Below are positions 6,421 through 63,616 of a DNA stretch of 64,000 nt, piece by piece; within the stretch, counting starts at the first letter, position 1; every line of letters starts with the position of its first letter. The notes beneath the pieces were generated by a model, which saw only the letters and a list, made by a program, of their open reading frames with translations, ran no database searches and was not told the origin of the DNA. This DNA is from Planctomycetales bacterium (lineage in GTDB: Bacteria > Planctomycetota > Planctomycetia > Planctomycetales > Planctomycetaceae), in assembly GCA_026400835.1 (NCBI GenBank), contig JAPLOA010000050.1, positions 1 to 64,000 on the forward strand, in the 5' to 3' direction. A program made the translations under genes and the position numbers.

Positions 6421-6841
6421 CGGGAATTATCATCACCCGACGCGTCAGTTTTGAAGGTGCGCGTTTCGGCGATGAGGTTGTTCACTTGCGGAAAAACACT
6501 GGGGTTTATCATAACCCGACGCGTCAGCGAGGGATTTACGGAAACACTTGTAAAACGCTAAAACACAATCCCTCGCTCACGCAGCGGGTTGGGATACACG
6601 CAAATGCGCAACTTCAAAACGCGTCAGCGAGGGATTTACGGAAACACTTGTAAAACGCTAAAACACAATCCCTCGCTCACGCAGCGGGTTGGGATACACG
6701 CAAATGCGCAACTTCAAAACGCGTCAGTGAGGGATTTACGGAAACACTTGTAAAACGCGACAGCTCGATTCCTCACTGACGTTTCGGCTTGTGATTTCTC
6801 GCCGCAGCAAAAAAGCATGTTATGTCGGGACTGTTTCTAAG
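6421..6841. repeat. R1 element copy ending in a terminal inverted repeat
   Basis: The segment 6421-6640 is closely similar to 53196-53405 (shared cgcgtcagttttgaag, gttgttcacttgcgg, aaacactgg, gcgtcagcgagggatttacg). Its right end (6820-6841, ttatgtcgggactgtttcta) matches the right terminal repeat of the full copy at 53463-53484 in 18 of 22 positions. No left terminal repeat is evident. It lies immediately beyond the truncated end of a sulfatase reading frame. Confidence 0.75.
6519..6768. repeat. Tandem 100-bp direct repeat inside the R1 copy
   Basis: gcgtcagcgagggatttacg starts at 6521 and again at 6621, and recurs with one change at 6721: an exact 100-bp period. The first two units appear identical; the third diverges after about 40 bp. 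Confidence 0.9.
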
Positions 6842-36675: not shown

Positions 36676-36706
36676 CCGATTTGAAATCTCAAATTTGAAA
36701 TTGCCG
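36676..36706. repeat. AT-rich repeat related to the coding palindrome at 61012-61041
   Basis: gatttgaaatctcaaatttg followed by aaattg shares the atctcaaattt/aaatttgaga building blocks with the perfect palindrome inside the giant gene. Confidence 0.6.
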
Positions 36707-53153: not shown

Positions 53154-53484
53154 CTTAGGAACAGTCCCGAAATAACCTCTGGATTTTCCTGAGGCGAGAC
53201 ATCACAACCCGACGCGTCAGTTTTGAAGTTGCGAGTTTCGGCGCTGAGGTTGTTCACTTGCGGAGAAACACTGGGATTTATCACAACCCGAAGCGTCAGC
53301 GAGGGATTTACGGCAACCCTGCGTAAAACGCAAAAGCACAATCCCTCACTTACGTTTCGGGTTGGGATGACCACAAACGCGCAACTTCAAAACGCGTCAG
53401 CGAGGGATTTTTGGGCCAGACGTCGATCCCTCGCTGACGCGTCGGGTTGTGATATCGGGAACTTATTTCGGGACTGCTCCTGAG
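53154..53484. repeat. Full-length R1 element with 22-bp terminal inverted repeats
   Basis: Left end 53154-53175 (cttaggaacagtcccgaaat...) and right end 53463-53484 (...cgggactgctcctgag) are inverted copies with 20 of 22 matches. They bound a 331-bp unit that holds several gcgtcag/ctgacgc and gagggat/atccctc blocks able to fold into hairpins. No coding capacity. It behaves like a non-autonomous (MITE-like) element; other copies are at 6421-6841 and 1667-1765. Confidence 0.8.
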
Positions 53485-56413: not shown

Positions 56414-59400
56414 ATGCTGCGACCGAGCCTTATACTCGTTTCTTGTCTGACTGCGATGACTCTTTGTGCGGCCGATGAGCTGACGCCCAACCGCTCGCCG
56501 GAGTATTCCGCCGTCCCGATCGGCGCGGCTGTTGTGGACATCACGCCCGATTATCCCGTGCGACTCACCGGCTATGGCAATCGCATGAAGGAATCGGACG
56601 GGGTGGCAGCGAAGATTCATGCGCGAGCGTTGGTGATTGGGGAACCCAAAGTAGCCGTCTCGCTCCGCCGAGACGAGCCTTTATCGGCGCCGCAAAGCTC
56701 AGGAACGCCGGCAGCCTCAGCGAGCGATTCGGCAACTGACAACGCGGTATTGGCGGATCATGCGAACACTGCAAGGCTTATCTCGACGGAGCGAGATGGC
56801 TACACTGTTCTGATCACCGTCGACAACTGCGGTGTTCCTCTCGAAATGACCGAAGCCGTCTACGAACGCGTCGCCGCGAAGTACAACATCCCGCGGCAGA
56901 ACTTTGCGATTTCGTCCACCCATTCTCATTCCGCGCCGTGGTTGCGAGGATTCGCGCCGAACATCTTTGCGGAGATTCCCGATGACCACGCGGCTCATCT
57001 GGCTCAGTATGAAAAAGAATTGACGGACAAGCTTGTCGATGTCGTCGAAAAAGCCATCGCCAGCCAGCGGCCGGGACATCTGTCTTACGGTTTCGGCGAA
57101 GCGGGCTTTGCGATGAATCGACGAGCCCTCGCGAATGGCAAATGGTCAGGTTTCGGTGAAGTGCCGGATGGGCCAACGGACAAACGAGTTCCCGTGCTGG
57201 CAGCCTATGATGTCGAAGGAAAGCTGATCGCGGTGCTGGCGAATTATGCGTGTCACTGCACCACGGAAACCGGCGAGTTCAATCAGATCAGCGGCGACTG
57301 GGCTGGCTTCGCCGCAGATATGCTCGAAGCTGATCACCCCGGAGCGGTGGCGTTAATTGCCATCGGTTGCGGAGCTGATGCGAATCCGTCACCGAGAGGA
57401 ACTCATGAGCAGGCGAAGTTGCATGGGAGCACGCTGGCGGATGAGGTCACGCGCATTCTGGCGAGCGGCAGGGCGTCAGCCCTCCGAGATCACGCGCCTG
57501 ATGCATCGAAAACAGAACAGGAACAGAACGCACTCGGAGGGCTGACGCCCAACCGCTCGCCAAACGCATTGTTACACCCCATCAACCCCGCCATTCTCTG
57601 CAACATGGCTCGCATCGACCTGCCACTCGGGCCGATCCCGTCGCGAGAAACCTGGGAACAGCAAGCCAAAGAACCCGGAGTCACCGGTTCGCGAGCTCGC
57701 TACTTTTTGCAAATGCTCGACGAAGGCAAACCGATCCCGACCACGATCCCCGACTATCCCGTGCAGACCTGGTGTTTCGGCGATGATCTGGCCATGGTCT
57801 TTCTGGGCGGCGAAGTGGTGGTGGATTATTCGATCCGGATGAACGACATGTTCGACAGCGATCGGCTATGGATAAACGCGTACTCGAATGATGTGCCTTG
57901 TTACATCGCCTCGGCGCGAATTCTTCGTGAAGGTGGTTACGAATGTGATTCGTCGATGCTGTTTTATCGACGGCCGACAAGATTGGCTCCGGAAGCGGAA
58001 GATGTTCTGTGCGATGCCGTGCAGAAGATCATGCCGCACAAGTTTTACTCGGAGAAACTGCAGCAGGACTTCCCGGCTCCCAGGAGTCCCGAGGAATCTC
58101 TGAAGACCATGACGACGAAGCCGGATCTGCGAGTAGTCCTTGCGGCCTCGGAGCCGCTGATTCGTGATCCTGTTGCGTTTGATTGGGATGAGCGAGGTCG
58201 GTTGTGGGTTGTGGAGATGGGTGATTATCCGAAAGGGGATCCCAAAGTAGCCGTCTCGCTCCGCCGAGACGAGCCTTCAACGACGCCGCAGGAAGCAGGA
58301 TCGCCCCCGGCCTCAGCGAATACTTCAGCAACTGACGATGCTGCATTGGCGGATGAAGCGAACACTGCAACGCTTATCTCGGCGGAGCGAGATGGCTACC
58401 GAGGTCGCGTGCAGATGCTCGAAGACACCGACAAGAACGGCGTCTACGACAAGGCTACGACGTTTCTCGACAACCTCGCCTTCCCCAACGGCATTCATTG
58501 CTGGCGAGGCGGCGTGATTATCACGATGGCTCCGGAGGTCTTCTACGCCGAGGATACGGACGGCGATGGGAAGGCCGATGTTCGCGAGACAATGTACCGA
58601 GGTTTCGTCGAAGGCAATCAGCAACATCGAGTTAATGGCTTGCGGTGGGGATTGGACGGTTGGTTGTATCTGGCGAATGGAGACAGCGGTGGTGAGATTG
58701 CAGGGACGGGATATGTGCCCGGAACATCGGCGAGCGGCAGGGCGTCAGCCCTCCGTATCGATGCGCCTGATGCATCGCAACAAAACAAACTCGGAGGGCT
58801 AACACCCTCCGCTCGCCAAAACAAGGACGCACACGGAGGGCTGACGCCCAACCGCTCGCCGGTGAGTTTGCGTGGCCGTGATCTTCGCATCAACCCGGAT
58901 ACGAACGAACTGGACACCGTCTCAGGGCAAACTCAGTTTGGTCGCGAACGCGATGACTTTGGAAACTGGTTTGGCAATAACAACTCCAACCCGATCTGGC
59001 AGTACGTGCTGGAAGATCGTTACGTCCGCCGGAATCCGTTTGCCGGGATTTCGCAGGTGACGGCGCCGGTTGCTGTGGCTCCTGGAGCAGCTCCGGTTTA
59101 TCCCACAAGTCGCACGCTGGCTCGGTTTAATGACTTTGCGTTTGCTAATCGATTCACGTCCGCCTGCAGCACGATGATCTATCGCGACAACTATCTTGGC
59201 GAACAATACTACGGCAACGCGTTCACATCCGAGCCGGTTCACAATTTGGTGTCGCGGCTTGTGATGACTCGCGATGGTTACGGTTTCAAAGGCGAACGAG
59301 CGGCCGATGAGCAGCAGTCGGAGTTTCTCGCGTCGTCCGACAATTGGTTTCGTCCGACAATGATCAGAACCGGCCCCGACGGAGCGATCTGGGTCGCCGA

Positions 59401-61897
59401 CATGTATCGTGCGGTGATTGAGCATCCAGAATGGATCCCGCCCGAATATCAGCGGAAGATGAATCTCTACGCTGGCAGCGACATGGGGAGAATTTATCGC
59501 ATTGTGCCAGCGAGCGAATGCTGTGGGGATTCGGCGAGCGGCAGGGCGTCAGCCCCCCGAGAAAACGGCACTGATGCTTCGCAACAACCAAACCCACTCG
59601 GAGGGCTGACACCCTCCGCTCGCCAGGACAATGATACACACGGAGAGCAGACGCCCAGCGGCTCGCCGGAGTTTAACGATGGCGAGCCTGCATTGGATGA
59701 CGAAGCGAACACTGCAAGGCTCATCTCGACGGAGCGAGATGGCTACTTTGACAAGCCGTGGAGCGAGATTCCTTTGGTCCAACTGCGGCAGCGGGTTCAA
59801 AGTTCCAATGGCTGGTGGCGTGATACCGCGCATCGGATATTGATGCACCGAATTCATGAACTGGACTCACGAGATATCACGGCGCTGGTCCAGTCGGCAA
59901 CGGGTGACGCGAATGAAGCGGTCTCAGTTCAGGCTGGTTCATTGTTGTCGTCTATCTGTGAGCACCTCGGTTCCGAACAGGCCATTGCAGCAAGAGCAGA
60001 AGCGATCCCCGCGTTGTTGACTGATGTACGGCCAGCAAGCCGCAGAATGGGTCTTCAGATGGTGGAATCATCCGAAAGTGAAAGACCTGCCAACGACCTT
60101 GTGATGTCGACGCTGGAGGGTATGACATCCGACGAGGATCGCTCTGTGCGACTGCAGTTGGCAATATCGTCAGGACAAATCAATCGTCAGAAAACATCGG
60201 TCATCATCGCAAAGCTTTTGCATCGAGACTTTAATGACAACGTCATTCGTAATGCTGCGATCTCATCGTTGACTGCCCGCAACATCGAAAACGTACTCAC
60301 CGAGACGCTTAAGATCGCGCCAGAAAATCCCAACGAACAACTTGTTGGTCTGCTCCTGGGACAGGCCGCCGCGATGGAGCAGCAGGACGCCGTCACGGGG
60401 CCACTGCTGGCACTGATTACATCCCTCAAACCGCATGCAACAGCTGCAGGAATTGATTCACTGGCCAGCACTGTCTCCAGCGTGCTGAATGGTGATATCG
60501 CGACCAGACTTCAAAGTAACAGGACATTCCTCGAAGCCATAAACGCTGCGGACGCGGTTGCGCAGGAGATCGCTCGAGATGAAACCGCGGAGGTTGATCG
60601 GCGAGCGGCTGCAATTCGATTTGCCGGCGTTTCGTCGATCATCACAGGCAGCAAGTCTCTCGACCTGATTCAGTTTCTGACACCTCAGACACCATTCGCT
60701 ATTCAACTGGCCGCGGTGCAATTGATGGGGCGAGATCTCGATCAGGAGGTGGTTAATCAAATCGTCAACAAATGGACAACTCTTGATCCGGCGGTGCGAG
60801 CAGAGGTCATGGCCAACATGCTGAAGCGAGAAAGCTCCATCGGATATCTGCTTGATCGCATTGAAGCAGGAAGTCTCTCTGCGGGAGATCTGGATGCCTC
60901 TCAACGTGATCGGTTAATCAATCATAGCTCCGGCTCCATTTCTGAAAGAGCTCGCAAGGTGCTGGGTGAAGAAATGCGTTCGGCACGATCGGCCGTCGTC
61001 GACAACTTCAAATCTCAAATTTCAAATTTGAAATTTGAGATCTCAAAAGACGAACAAGCGGCAGCAGGCAAGCTGGTCTTTGAAAAACGATGTGCGACGT
61101 GTCACCGATTGCAGGACATCGGCAAGGAAGTCGGAGCCGATCTGGCGGCGTTGAAGGATCGGTCGACGAATGCTTTATTGACTGCGATTCTGGATCCGAA
61201 CAAAGCGGTGGAGTCCAGGTTTTTGGTTTATACCGTCGTCACGAAAGATGGGCTGCAGCATTCGGGAATGCTGAAAGGCGAGACCGGCGGCAGTTTGACG
61301 TTGATCGGTAACGACGGCAAAGAGATAACCGTTGTGCGAGCGAACATCGAAGAACTTGTCGGTTCACAAAGATCGCTGATGCCGGAAGGATTGGAGAAGG
61401 ATCTTTCCGCAGTAGACATTGCGAATGTGATTGCGTTTGTGCAGTCAACGGGTACGCCATGGAAGCGGTTCGACGGGAATGCTCCGAAGTTTGTCGCGGT
61501 CAACGCTGATGGTTCGGTGACTCTGCCGGCATCTGCGGCGGAAATTTACGGACCGAGTCTCATCTTCGAAGAGAAATACGGCAACCTTGGTTATTGGACG
61601 TCTGCGGATGACTACGCCAGATGGACGTTTGAAGTGCCGAAGTCCGGACACTGGACGGTTGAGTTCGACTTTGCCTGCGACGACAGCAACGCGGGAAGTC
61701 TGATCAAGTTTTCCACTGGCAATCGCATGTTGACAGCTCGCGTGCCAGGCAGCGGGACGTGGGACAATTATCAAACCTGGCAAGCCGGCACTATCGATCT
61801 GCATCGAGGCCGCGGGCAGTTGATCATTACGGCTCCGGAGAAACCTCCGTTTGCGTTGATTGATTTGCGAGCGGTGAGATTGATACCGCCGAAGTAA
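56414..61897 (+). CDS. Giant exported ceramidase-like/membrane-bound dehydrogenase/HEAT/cytochrome c fusion
   Basis: 1827 residues. Signal peptide at about 1-22. Residues about 30-560 resemble neutral/alkaline ceramidase: VPIGAAVVDITPDYPVRLTGYG, LITVDNCGVPLEMTEAVYERV, STHSHSAPWLRGFAPN, IAVLANYACHCTTE. About 590-1100 is the planctomycete membrane-bound dehydrogenase propeller: PVAFDWDERGRLWVVEMGDYP, LAFPNGIHCWRGGVII, RWGLDGWLYLANGDSGG, RDDFGNWFGNNNSNPIWQY, DGAIWVADMYRAVIEHPEWI, GSDMGRIYRIVP. HEAT-type repeats follow to about 1530. A haem c site C1560-ATCH lies in KLVFEKRCATCHRLQDIG. The C-terminal beta-sandwich (SGHWTVEFDFACDDSNAG) may bind carbohydrate. The coding sequence is interrupted in frame by several palindromic elements listed separately. 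Acts outside the cytoplasm; substrate unknown. Confidence 0.88.
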   Translation: MLRPSLILVSCLTAMTLCAADELTPNRSPEYSAVPIGAAVVDITPDYPVRLTGYGNRMKESDGVAAKIHARALVIGEPKVAVSLRRDEPLSAPQSSGTPAASASDSATDNAVLADHANTARLISTERDGYTVLITVDNCGVPLEMTEAVYERVAAKYNIPRQNFAISSTHSHSAPWLRGFAPNIFAEIPDDHAAHLAQYEKELTDKLVDVVEKAIASQRPGHLSYGFGEAGFAMNRRALANGKWSGFGEVPDGPTDKRVPVLAAYDVEGKLIAVLANYACHCTTETGEFNQISGDWAGFAADMLEADHPGAVALIAIGCGADANPSPRGTHEQAKLHGSTLADEVTRILASGRASALRDHAPDASKTEQEQNALGGLTPNRSPNALLHPINPAILCNMARIDLPLGPIPSRETWEQQAKEPGVTGSRARYFLQMLDEGKPIPTTIPDYPVQTWCFGDDLAMVFLGGEVVVDYSIRMNDMFDSDRLWINAYSNDVPCYIASARILREGGYECDSSMLFYRRPTRLAPEAEDVLCDAVQKIMPHKFYSEKLQQDFPAPRSPEESLKTMTTKPDLRVVLAASEPLIRDPVAFDWDERGRLWVVEMGDYPKGDPKVAVSLRRDEPSTTPQEAGSPPASANTSATDDAALADEANTATLISAERDGYRGRVQMLEDTDKNGVYDKATTFLDNLAFPNGIHCWRGGVIITMAPEVFYAEDTDGDGKADVRETMYRGFVEGNQQHRVNGLRWGLDGWLYLANGDSGGEIAGTGYVPGTSASGRASALRIDAPDASQQNKLGGLTPSARQNKDAHGGLTPNRSPVSLRGRDLRINPDTNELDTVSGQTQFGRERDDFGNWFGNNNSNPIWQYVLEDRYVRRNPFAGISQVTAPVAVAPGAAPVYPTSRTLARFNDFAFANRFTSACSTMIYRDNYLGEQYYGNAFTSEPVHNLVSRLVMTRDGYGFKGERAADEQQSEFLASSDNWFRPTMIRTGPDGAIWVADMYRAVIEHPEWIPPEYQRKMNLYAGSDMGRIYRIVPASECCGDSASGRASAPRENGTDASQQPNPLGGLTPSARQDNDTHGEQTPSGSPEFNDGEPALDDEANTARLISTERDGYFDKPWSEIPLVQLRQRVQSSNGWWRDTAHRILMHRIHELDSRDITALVQSATGDANEAVSVQAGSLLSSICEHLGSEQAIAARAEAIPALLTDVRPASRRMGLQMVESSESERPANDLVMSTLEGMTSDEDRSVRLQLAISSGQINRQKTSVIIAKLLHRDFNDNVIRNAAISSLTARNIENVLTETLKIAPENPNEQLVGLLLGQAAAMEQQDAVTGPLLALITSLKPHATAAGIDSLASTVSSVLNGDIATRLQSNRTFLEAINAADAVAQEIARDETAEVDRRAAAIRFAGVSSIITGSKSLDLIQFLTPQTPFAIQLAAVQLMGRDLDQEVVNQIVNKWTTLDPAVRAEVMANMLKRESSIGYLLDRIEAGSLSAGDLDASQRDRLINHSSGSISERARKVLGEEMRSARSAVVDNFKSQISNLKFEISKDEQAAAGKLVFEKRCATCHRLQDIGKEVGADLAALKDRSTNALLTAILDPNKAVESRFLVYTVVTKDGLQHSGMLKGETGGSLTLIGNDGKEITVVRANIEELVGSQRSLMPEGLEKDLSAVDIANVIAFVQSTGTPWKRFDGNAPKFVAVNADGSVTLPASAAEIYGPSLIFEEKYGNLGYWTSADDYARWTFEVPKSGHWTVEFDFACDDSNAGSLIKFSTGNRMLTARVPGSGTWDNYQTWQAGTIDLHRGRGQLIITAPEKPPFALIDLRAVRLIPPK
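56477..56499. repeat. Partial T2 element at the mature N-terminus
   Basis: gctgacgcccaaccgctcgc (56479 onward) is identical to the right arm of the T2 copy at 57541-57561. It encodes LTPNRSP right after the signal peptide. The left arm is missing. Confidence 0.7.
56651..56803. repeat. T1 palindromic element, copy a, in frame
   Basis: 153 bp = 51 codons (residues 80-130). Left arm 56651-56680 (gtagccgtctcgctccgccg...) and right arm 56774-56803 (...cggagcgagatggctac) are inverted with a few mismatches over 30 bp. It inserts V-A-V-S-L-R-R-D-E-P...S-T-E-R-D-G-Y between ALVIG and TVLITVDNCG of the ceramidase-like domain. Confidence 0.9.
57460..57561. repeat. T2 palindromic element, copy a, in frame
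   Basis: 102 bp = 34 codons. Left arm 57460-57488 (ggcgagcggcagggcgtcag...) and right arm 57533-57561 (...gacgcccaaccgctcgcc) are inverted with two mismatches over 29 bp. It encodes SGRASAL...LGGLTPNRSP in a loop of the ceramidase-like domain. Confidence 0.9.
58247..58399. repeat. T1 palindromic element, copy b, in frame
   Basis: 153 bp = 51 codons (residues 612-662), same length and same reading phase as copy a. Both copies are preceded by cccaaa. It sits between WVVEMGDYP and GRVQMLEDTD of the dehydrogenase domain. Confidence 0.9.
58729..58860. repeat. T2 palindromic element, copy b, with duplicated right arm
   Basis: 132 bp = 44 codons. The left arm starts at 58729. There are two successive right arms, 58790-58817 (diverged) and 58834-58860, encoding LGGLTPSARQ then HGGLTPNRSP. 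Confidence 0.85.
59533..59667. repeat. T2 palindromic element, copy c, with duplicated right arm
   Basis: 135 bp = 45 codons. The left arm starts at 59533. The right arms are 59597-59624 and a diverged 59641-59667. It is followed at once by a partial T1 element. Confidence 0.85.
59674..59746. repeat. T1 element, truncated copy c
   Basis: Only the central portion and the right arm (59717-59746) remain; the left arm is missing. It shares the reading phase of the other copies (last codon ends at 59746, residue 1111). Confidence 0.75.
61012..61041. repeat. 30-bp perfect AT-rich palindrome inside coding sequence
   Basis: atctcaaatttcaaa followed by its exact reverse complement. Read in frame it encodes SQISNLKFEI between the HEAT region and the cytochrome domain. 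Related sequence occurs at 36676-36706. Confidence 0.85.
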
Positions 61898-63053: not shown

Positions 63054-63616
63054 AGATGCAACTCCGGATCATTATGTAGGACGACTTGCCTGTGTTGGCA
63101 GTTGGCACGCACATGCGAACTCAGGAATGCTGATGATGGGGCTTCATCCACTACGCGTCAGGCGTTATGAAACTCATGTGTCGTCCGTTTTTGCTGCAAG
63201 CATAGCGATACGCAACGTAGTGCAATTCCGGGAGGGCAAGGCTCCTGCCGAGCCGTGCGTTTCCGCAGTGCAGTGGCTCGGCAGGAGCCTCGCCCTCCCA
63301 AGTTGACAATCATCCGCGACTACACCCTGTCGTCCGTTTTGCTGCAAGCGTTGCGTTACGCAGCATCGCCTCAGAATGATCGGCCGCTGCGAGTTTGATG
63401 CAGGCCCTGTTTCAGTGGTTAACTTCAATAGCCTCACAACGGCATTGCGTTGGGGGCAAACTTGTTCTGGAATCGGGATCGAATAAACTTCCGGCAAGGG
63501 ACGCATGCGGCCGATCTTTATGGCAGAGACTTTGGTCACTGCCGCCTCATTCTGCAACCTTGTGAGACGCACTCTCGGCGACTCCTGGGCACTGCCTGTT
63601 TTTCGTGAGAACACTT
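63054..63616. other. Intergenic stretch with repeats
   Basis: About 560 bp between the divergent GAF and globin genes. It contains a direct repeat (63178-63213 and 63329-63362, sharing tcgtccgttt-tgctgcaag), a strong hairpin (63230-63299) and module 2 of the composite repeat. No gene was recognised; the long minus-strand open frame here translates repeat sequence. Confidence 0.6.
63230..63299. repeat. Composite repeat module 1: 25-bp stem hairpin
   Basis: Left arm 63230-63254 (gggagggcaaggctcctgcc...) and right arm 63275-63299 (...gcaggagcctcgccctccc) pair with one G-U type mismatch, leaving a 20-nt loop. Module 2 (gacaatcatccgcgactaca) follows directly at 63305. A left-armless copy is at 25815. 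Confidence 0.85.

Follow-up and report, generated by a model that had tools for sequence, protein, structure and literature searches.

How can a single bacterial gene come to carry palindromes of one kind, in frame, at several separate sites? We addressed this question in a 64,000-nucleotide stretch of a Planctomycetales genome (contig JAPLOA010000050.1, positions 1 to 64,000), hereafter called the window. The genome that bears it, G000, comprises 7.58 Mb in 112 contigs; other G numbers denote its relatives, C numbers contigs and L numbers loci. A preliminary description of the window had reported two intact palindromes (T1) of equal length, 51 codons each, in the same phase of one gene encoding ceramidase-like and dehydrogenase-like domains, and it had noted 30-bp inverted arms in both. 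These statements were borne out (Table 1). Copies A and B are both 153 bp long, stand in frame 0 of the gene at 56414-61897 in the same orientation, and pair at 26/30 terminal bases within each copy. They share 128/153 bases, with left arms identical at 30/30 positions and right arms at 28/30. RNA folding of the two copies gave z = -6.84 and -6.25, with 0/200 shuffles folding as well in each case. In addition, the gene holds features that went beyond the earlier description, namely a half T1 copy, palindromes of a further family (T2), an AT-rich palindrome (T5), and six loops whose palindromes differ across species.

Table 1. Positions of the host gene and its palindromic elements in the window, and of related doublets in two verrucomicrobial orthologues.
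Feature	Position	Strand	Description
Host gene	56414-61897	+	1827 aa, ATG start, 0 internal stops
T2 half element, loop 0	56473-56499	-	near N-terminus; 5 mismatches
T1 copy A, loop A	56651-56803	+	51-codon inverted doublet of GTAG REPs; flanked on either side by a beta-strand of the ceramidase domain
REP unit, A left arm	56651-56673	+	0 mismatches
REP unit, A right arm	56781-56803	-	0 mismatches
T2 inverted doublet, loop 3	57460-57561	+	102 bp, 34 codons; same junction in G001
T1 copy B, loop B	58247-58399	+	GTAG-REP inverted doublet, 51 codons; within DUF7133
REP unit, B left arm	58247-58269	+	0 mismatches
REP unit, B right arm	58377-58399	-	0 mismatches
T2 compound, loop 5	58729-58860	+	132 bp, 44 codons; extra inverted unit 58797-58817
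T2 compound, loop 6	59533-59667	+	135 bp, 45 codons; extra inverted unit 59604-59624
T1 copy C, loop 6	59692-59746	+	right half only
REP unit, C right arm	59724-59746	-	0 mismatches
T5, 30-bp AT-rich palindrome	61012-61041	.	within KSQISNLKFEI, ahead of the cytochrome c-type domain; palindrome judged by eye
GTAG doublet, loop 5	L190:7924-8015		verrucomicrobial orthologue
GTAG doublet, loop 5	L194:7849-7920		verrucomicrobial orthologue

The predicted host protein consists, in order, of a neutral-ceramidase domain, a DUF7133/PVC heme-binding domain, HEAT-like repeats and a cytochrome c-type domain, which agrees with the domain names given earlier. The ceramidase part matches the PF04734 profile, and its fold is backed by PDB matches such as 2zws (E 1.7e-23); the HEAT match, which sits between the DUF7133 part and the cytochrome c-type domain, scores below the Pfam cut-off. 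Records titled Planctomycetes and Verrucomicrobia match the fusion over most of its length. Outside the inserts, the gene shows a dN/dS of 0.12-0.15 at a synonymous divergence of 1.2-1.8. An AlphaFold model of a 581-aa stretch reached a mean pLDDT of 83.9, and in this model low-confidence loops take up the bulk of insert A and the central part of the loop-3 insert, while the rest of the domain is confident. Insert A corresponds to model residues 60-110, is flanked by strands 50-56 and 112-117, and has a pLDDT below 50 at residues 72-106. The model of a 1037-aa stretch was poor (mean pLDDT 49).

A search of the whole genome showed that T1 also exists outside the host gene. Its first 23 bases constitute a REP unit with the pattern GTAG-CC-GTCTCG-CTCCGC-CGAGAC, which occurs in G000 as 25+26 units with at most 3 mismatches, compared to 1+0 for the reversed pattern. 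By its share of the genome length the host gene would be expected to hold 0.04 of these 51 units; it holds 5, which are not independent insertions. The REP has a 6-bp stem and a 6-nt loop, each of the 6 pairs being Watson-Crick in 85-95 of 109 units, with stem covariation at pairs 7:24 (GC 52, AT 32 of 109) and 10:21 (TA 76, AT 10 of 109), and its unpaired tag beside a short stem-loop is that of GTAG REPs. Inverted doublets account for 32/51 units, two of these doublets lying in the host gene and 14 elsewhere in G000 (13 of 145-169 bp and one of 271 bp). Like REPINs and BIMEs, T1 thus combines dispersed copies with head-head doublets that have conserved ends and a variable spacer. We then located the units in a 1.247-Mb sample of 61 stretches, of which 20 were picked around T1 units and 40 came from long contigs, the remaining one being the window. 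Of 46 units, 5 were in the host gene and 6 in other ORFs, and the remaining 35 stood clear of any ORF of at least 200 aa. ORFs are here plain open reading frames, and those other than the host gene that hold T1 units, among them the 205-codon ORF around the doublet on C9, are putative. T1 is an inverted doublet of GTAG-tagged REPs of the REPIN/BIME type and is mostly extragenic. One T1 unit, at position 9801 of L032, supplies from its GTAG the TAG stop of a 614-aa ORF (L032:7960-9804, on G000:C60).

Three other readings of T1 were discarded. Assignment to the CGTC-tagged REPs fails because these have a CGTC tag and a stem of 8-9 bp, unlike the GTAG tag and 6-bp stem of T1. A known RNA family was rejected because no Rfam model reached its gathering score anywhere in the window. 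The idea that T1 was pre-adapted to in-frame reading was dropped, as the outside doublets are not regularly open: their open frames differ, and 4/14 have none.

On contig C73 of G000, a RAYT-like ORF (68981-69709) is flanked by T1 doublets at 68824-68976 and 69654-69805; its 5' end overlaps the latter. This ORF matches PF01797 with 30.2 bits (cut-off 23), and scores 55.8 bits against the NCBIfam profile REP_Tyr_transpos, below the cut-off of 80. Matches to it were found in 10/18 genomes of the genus, the best being at 92% in G004, 73% in G014 and 61% in G001. T1 units stand on both sides of the homologue in G014, which has one internal stop, and in G004. Homologues at 52-53% are also present in G005 and G017, both without T1 units at up to 2 mismatches, and this weakens a strict link between T1 and RAYT. 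The position of the C73 gene nevertheless suggests that it is the cognate of T1, and a RAYT-like protein probably mobilised the family.

The segment is missing from the orthologous gene in relatives that do not have the repeat, and alignment of the orthologues shows short loops at the T1 sites of relatives without T1. Insert-free orthologues were found in 10 genomes (G002, G003, G006, G007, G008, G009, G010, G013, G016 and G020), a status that holds for the loops covered by each piece and, in G009, for loop 6 only. None of these 10 genomes yielded a T1 unit at up to 2 mismatches. The orthologues in G012 and G017 are C-terminal fragments missing the loops, and that in G004 covers residues 1-128 only. 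As far as draft assemblies allow, the insert-free orthologues rule out that T1 is a conserved domain.

Inverted repeats are numerous in the orthologues of four species, G000 (5), G014 (7), G005 (5) and G001 (3+3, on two contigs), compared to 0.05-0.55 per orthologue row in codon-shuffled controls; the 13 insert-free rows contain 2 in total, and their shuffled means sum to 3.45. Across 1870 core columns, 22/23 inverted repeats of the four insert-bearing species fall in six loops, labelled 0, A, 3, B, 5 and 6, with site identity good to a few residues only and inserts placed in gaps by the aligner; the one exception is weak. They occupy 21/24 loop-by-species cells, a G005 repeat that spans loops 0 and A being counted at A. 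Of the other three cells, two belong to loop 0, with a half T2 in G000 and one T3 arm in G005, and the third is loop 3 of G014, where a worn T1 stands. The same loops are occupied by differing sequences in different species. At loop B, G000 and G014 have T1, G005 has T3 (of GAAAGCGGAGAGCGG type) and G001 has T4 (of GGATTC type), and loop 0 has a T2 doublet in G001 and a T2-like one in G014 at the place of the G000 half element. The six residues at the T5 site are absent from the insert-free relatives and from G014.

In a tree of 1580 columns, with one aligner setting each for alignments and trees, the insert-bearing species and the G004 fragment split from the insert-free ones with a support of 0.88. 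G000, G017, G014, G001 and G012 group at 0.99, with G014 and G001 as sisters at 0.95, and the order of G005 and G004 is without support. Loop 3 carries T2 at the same junction in G000 and G001, and T1 in G014. Moreover, the T1 right junction at loop 6 is common to G000 (right half), G014 (complete T1) and G001 (right half). Given the loop-3 pattern on the tree and this common junction, the loops appear to have been occupied for long, with one palindrome replacing another. In G004 (C148, L146), the gene ends within a T1 right arm that is followed by another REP and other sequence; the break may reflect a REP-mediated deletion or an assembly misjoin, as the genomes are drafts in which repeats can misjoin.

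We also asked whether the kinds of palindrome are dispersed, using samples of G000, G001 and G005 and thus the kinds outside G014. T2, T5-type, T6-type and T7 have copies outside the host gene, T5-type also outside ORFs in G001, and T3 has two such copies in 269 kb of G005. No T4 copy was found outside the host gene in a 407-kb sample of G001. Since not all kinds were seen to be dispersed, some palindromes may have arisen in place. T2 occurs at 7+20 places in G000 with at most 2 mismatches, compared to 1+0 in the control, and T2-like units surround a PF01797 (IS200/RAYT-like) gene at L307:16255-16809 (G000:C27), which by its surroundings is a likely partner of the T2 family. Within the window, a T5-type AT-rich sequence is also present at 36685-36702. 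Another repeat family (AGCGTCAGCGAGGGATTTACGG...) lies at 6429-6818, 53201-53391 and 1688-1760, with direct 100-bp tandem copies at 6519-6818 and an inverted arrangement near 1688; its sequence is perhaps that of CGTC-tagged REPs. A palindrome GGGAGGGCAAGGCTCCTGCCGAGCC at 63230-63299 resembles others near ORF starts in L049 and L312 and one inside a WD40 gene of G001 (L349:4937-5028).

The T1 doublets within the gene form a set of their own. Five complete ones are known, 2 in G000 and 3 in G014, all of 153 bp and with one orientation and one frame. Their interiors are mutually alike, as only 0-5/1000 codon shuffles reach the observed identity, and this identity is 70/93 within G000, 51, 54 and 55/93 within G014, and 42-51/93 between the species, with 45/93 at the shared loop B. 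In searches with the interiors, matches elsewhere reached no further than about 44 bases in from the start or 40 from the end, and an all-against-all BLAST of doublets linked the in-gene T1 to no outside doublet over 60 bases or more. Against four outside elements of 153 to 156 bp, a shuffle z of at least 3 was reached in 4/40 comparisons, with a maximum of 3.5; on this weak likeness, descent of the coding interior from such elements is neither shown nor excluded. Disorder-promoting residues make up 142/155 positions in the in-gene interiors, compared to 1551/2478 in 13 outside doublets over all frames, suggesting that the interiors would encode disordered linkers.

In contrast to these interiors, which differ at 24-38 of about 100 bases, the T1 arms differ at 1-6/50 bases, a contrast that is equally strong in most of the diverged doublet pairs outside the gene. 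To read arm conservation against the gene itself, we compared arms with overlapping 10-codon windows of the same gene, the resulting fractions being descriptive. The loop-6 right arm shows 0/30 differences between G000 and G001, where 6/552 comparable windows differ by at most 1, and 1/30 between G000 and G014, where 10/648 windows do so; the 1/30 between G014 and G001 is not unusual (99/777 windows). The loop-B arms differ at 2 and 3 of 30 bases between G000 and G014. At loop 6 the left partner arm has been lost in both G000 and G001, and for this reason it seems to be the single REP, not the doublet, that is kept there.

Palindromes are not confined to the host gene, as other ORFs also hold inverted repeats. 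In the G000 sample, 19 were detected in 682 ORFs, 4 in the host gene and 15 elsewhere (several of them weak or near the N-terminus), compared to 0, 2, 0, 4 and 2 in codon-shuffled controls. As raw counts, the G005 sample gave 6 in 151 ORFs, 3 of them in the host orthologue, and the G001 sample 9 in 218 ORFs, 5 of them in the host orthologue. The clearest other case is a WD40-repeat protein of G001 (L349:1588-6804, on C12), which has two different in-frame palindromes ahead of its propellers. Other carriers exist, but none in the samples is as heavily loaded as the host gene. Paralogues of the same architecture (G000:C35, G001:C83, G005:C102) and the shorter G000:C65 showed no palindromes in these loops; a single weak inverted repeat lies elsewhere in G005:C102, and loop B of G001:C83 contains a short stub resembling T3.

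Beyond the genus, 6 of 28 related loci scanned contain an inverted repeat with arms of at least 18; one of the six, L168, bears the contig number of the G014 contig. Two loci, L190 (its record titled Limisphaerales) and L194 (a metagenome bin under the title Akkermansia muciniphila), have GTAG doublets at loop 5 that stand in the T1 frame, the right GTAG tag of L194 being worn, and no insert of this kind was present in the other loci among the 16 aligned. At a domain junction (reference 549-552), the scan found palindromes in L185 and L190, and L192 and L194 have a similar peptide insert with the left arm of L190.

Taken together, our results are best explained by REP doublets landing, through a RAYT-linked process, in loops that tolerate them and being read through as linkers, a reading to which as a whole we assign a probability of roughly 0.58. 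The ancestor of a small planctomycete clade would have come to tolerate insertions at several surface loops of the ceramidase-dehydrogenase fusion, and several kinds of palindrome would have landed there in frame, replacing or stacking on one another over time. It seems that T1 gave rise to a coding lineage found in the host gene alone; its members are mutually similar, and a spread from loop to loop would account for this. An open frame and purifying selection around the inserts point to read-through into protein. The inserts would then serve as unstructured linkers, with interiors drifting under a demand for disorder-type residues and arms held at the nucleotide level by whatever keeps REPs alike throughout the genome, be it transposase recognition or copy conversion, rather than by the protein. 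The insert peptides may be mostly harmless passengers. We infer mobilisation, translation, function and the landing places alike from such patterns.

Alternatively, the loops may need a palindrome, in that an mRNA hairpin (or DNA cruciform) is useful there, for instance by pacing translation between folding units or protecting a long message, so that any palindrome serves and turnover swaps one hairpin for another. Such a need would fit the filling of 21/24 cells despite differing sequences, the strong fold energies of the T1 copies, the near constancy of T1 and T2 arms over a synonymous divergence of 1.2-1.8, and the recurrence of GTAG doublets in the same loop of two verrucomicrobial orthologues. 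It also gains from the T4 result, since a palindrome present only in the host gene of the G001 sample looks as if it arose in place, and this finding weakens the landing-place explanation to the same end. Moreover, tolerance alone leaves the heavy load of the gene unexplained, because paralogues of the same architecture have no palindromes in the same loops. We nevertheless consider a need for hairpins unlikely: arms outlast interiors just as clearly in doublets outside the gene, the loop-6 right arm is conserved in G000 and G001 though its partner, and with it the doublet hairpin, is gone, and insert-free sister species do without. A stronger form, in which the loops are standing docks with a hairpin useful at each, and any in-frame palindrome is kept and successively replaced, is more doubtful still. 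If it were true, mobile palindromes would be interchangeable coding parts in one planctomycete clade or more, and Verrucomicrobia would have come to such use independently.

Landing with the help of a RAYT-like protein could also have contributed little or nothing after the first insertion, with spread and turnover due mainly to recombination and gene conversion between palindromes within the gene and across the genome. In-gene interiors tend to be more alike within species than between them, also at loop B, composite elements stand at loops 5 and 6, and the G004 gene runs from a T1 right arm into another REP arm, all of which conversion would explain. Yet the filling of an empty loop requires insertion, and the G004 junction may be a misjoin; we therefore hold this account to be possible, if rather improbable. 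That the T1 segment is ordinary conserved protein sequence, or a product of chance or assembly, hardly deserves credence: the contigs are drafts and the peptide is of low complexity, but insert-free orthologues lack the segment, the REP count of 51 stands against 1 in the control, the excess of inverted repeats over shuffled rows is large, and the same kind of structure recurs in the separate genome bins G014, G001 and G005.

It has long been asked whether REPs stay conserved because they are selfishly mobile or because they are of use to the host, and REPs outside genes have no neutral yardstick beside them. The synonymous sites of the host gene provide one: between G000 and two relatives, the code around the loop-6 arm has changed widely and the arm itself at 0-1/30 bases. 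The gene has also received differing palindromes repeatedly at fixed loops and so touches on the question how mobile DNA turns into protein, and related species with different palindromes at the same spots allow a natural test of why such repeats are kept in bacteria.

The preliminary description had compared the segments to Rickettsia palindromic elements, which, according to the relevant parts of PMC10969869, are palindromes of about 150 bp read in frame in unrelated proteins of many genes. The likeness stands insofar as T1 is a dispersed family with a palindrome of about 150 bp in frame in a host ORF, with predicted translation. T1 is nevertheless set apart by description, as its arms are GTAG REPs and most of its copies are found away from long ORFs, and a GTAG-REP doublet with a RAYT-like gene is the better classification. 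In the mitochondrial genes of Nematomorpha, coding palindromes likewise are inverted repeats inside genes with expressed proteins, but according to PMC6649704 both arms encode conserved protein regions there, whereas T1 is extra loop sequence absent from relatives.

T1 is closest to the REPINs and BIMEs (REPINs as outlined in parts of PMC8049555), with the GTAG tag outside, a 6-bp stem and 6-nt loop, head-head doublets with a variable spacer that are mostly outside long ORFs, and copies flanking a PF01797 gene of the kind for which classes, Planctomycetes included, are given in excerpts of PMC6006769. It differs in that part of the family stands in frame at several loops of one gene with mutually similar interiors. 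The portions of Di Nocera et al. 2013 (PMC3733652) on GTAG REPs give stems of 5-13 bp and loops of 2-20 nt, and report dimers and in-frame cases in many species as well as an occurrence in R. baltica; the earlier statement that no such elements were established in planctomycetes was hence too strong. What holds of it is that titles and abstract openings of open-licence papers yielded no account of a planctomycete gene with REPs in frame, nor of a single gene in which several kinds of palindrome share the same loops; the supplementary list of intragenic REPs in PMC3733652 may include a planctomycete case. In the same portions, two in-frame dimers in one gene are described for uvrA of O. terrae and for one Thioalkalivibrio gene, and recB of X. 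campestris and X. oryzae has different REPs at about the same site. Compared to these cases, which share REP dimers in frame within genes, the host gene has six loops with at least 6 palindrome kinds over four species, nearly all filled, and adds a T1 set with a common interior. In-frame REPs are thus already known; what appears new is that fixed loops of a single gene are filled again and again by differing palindromes.
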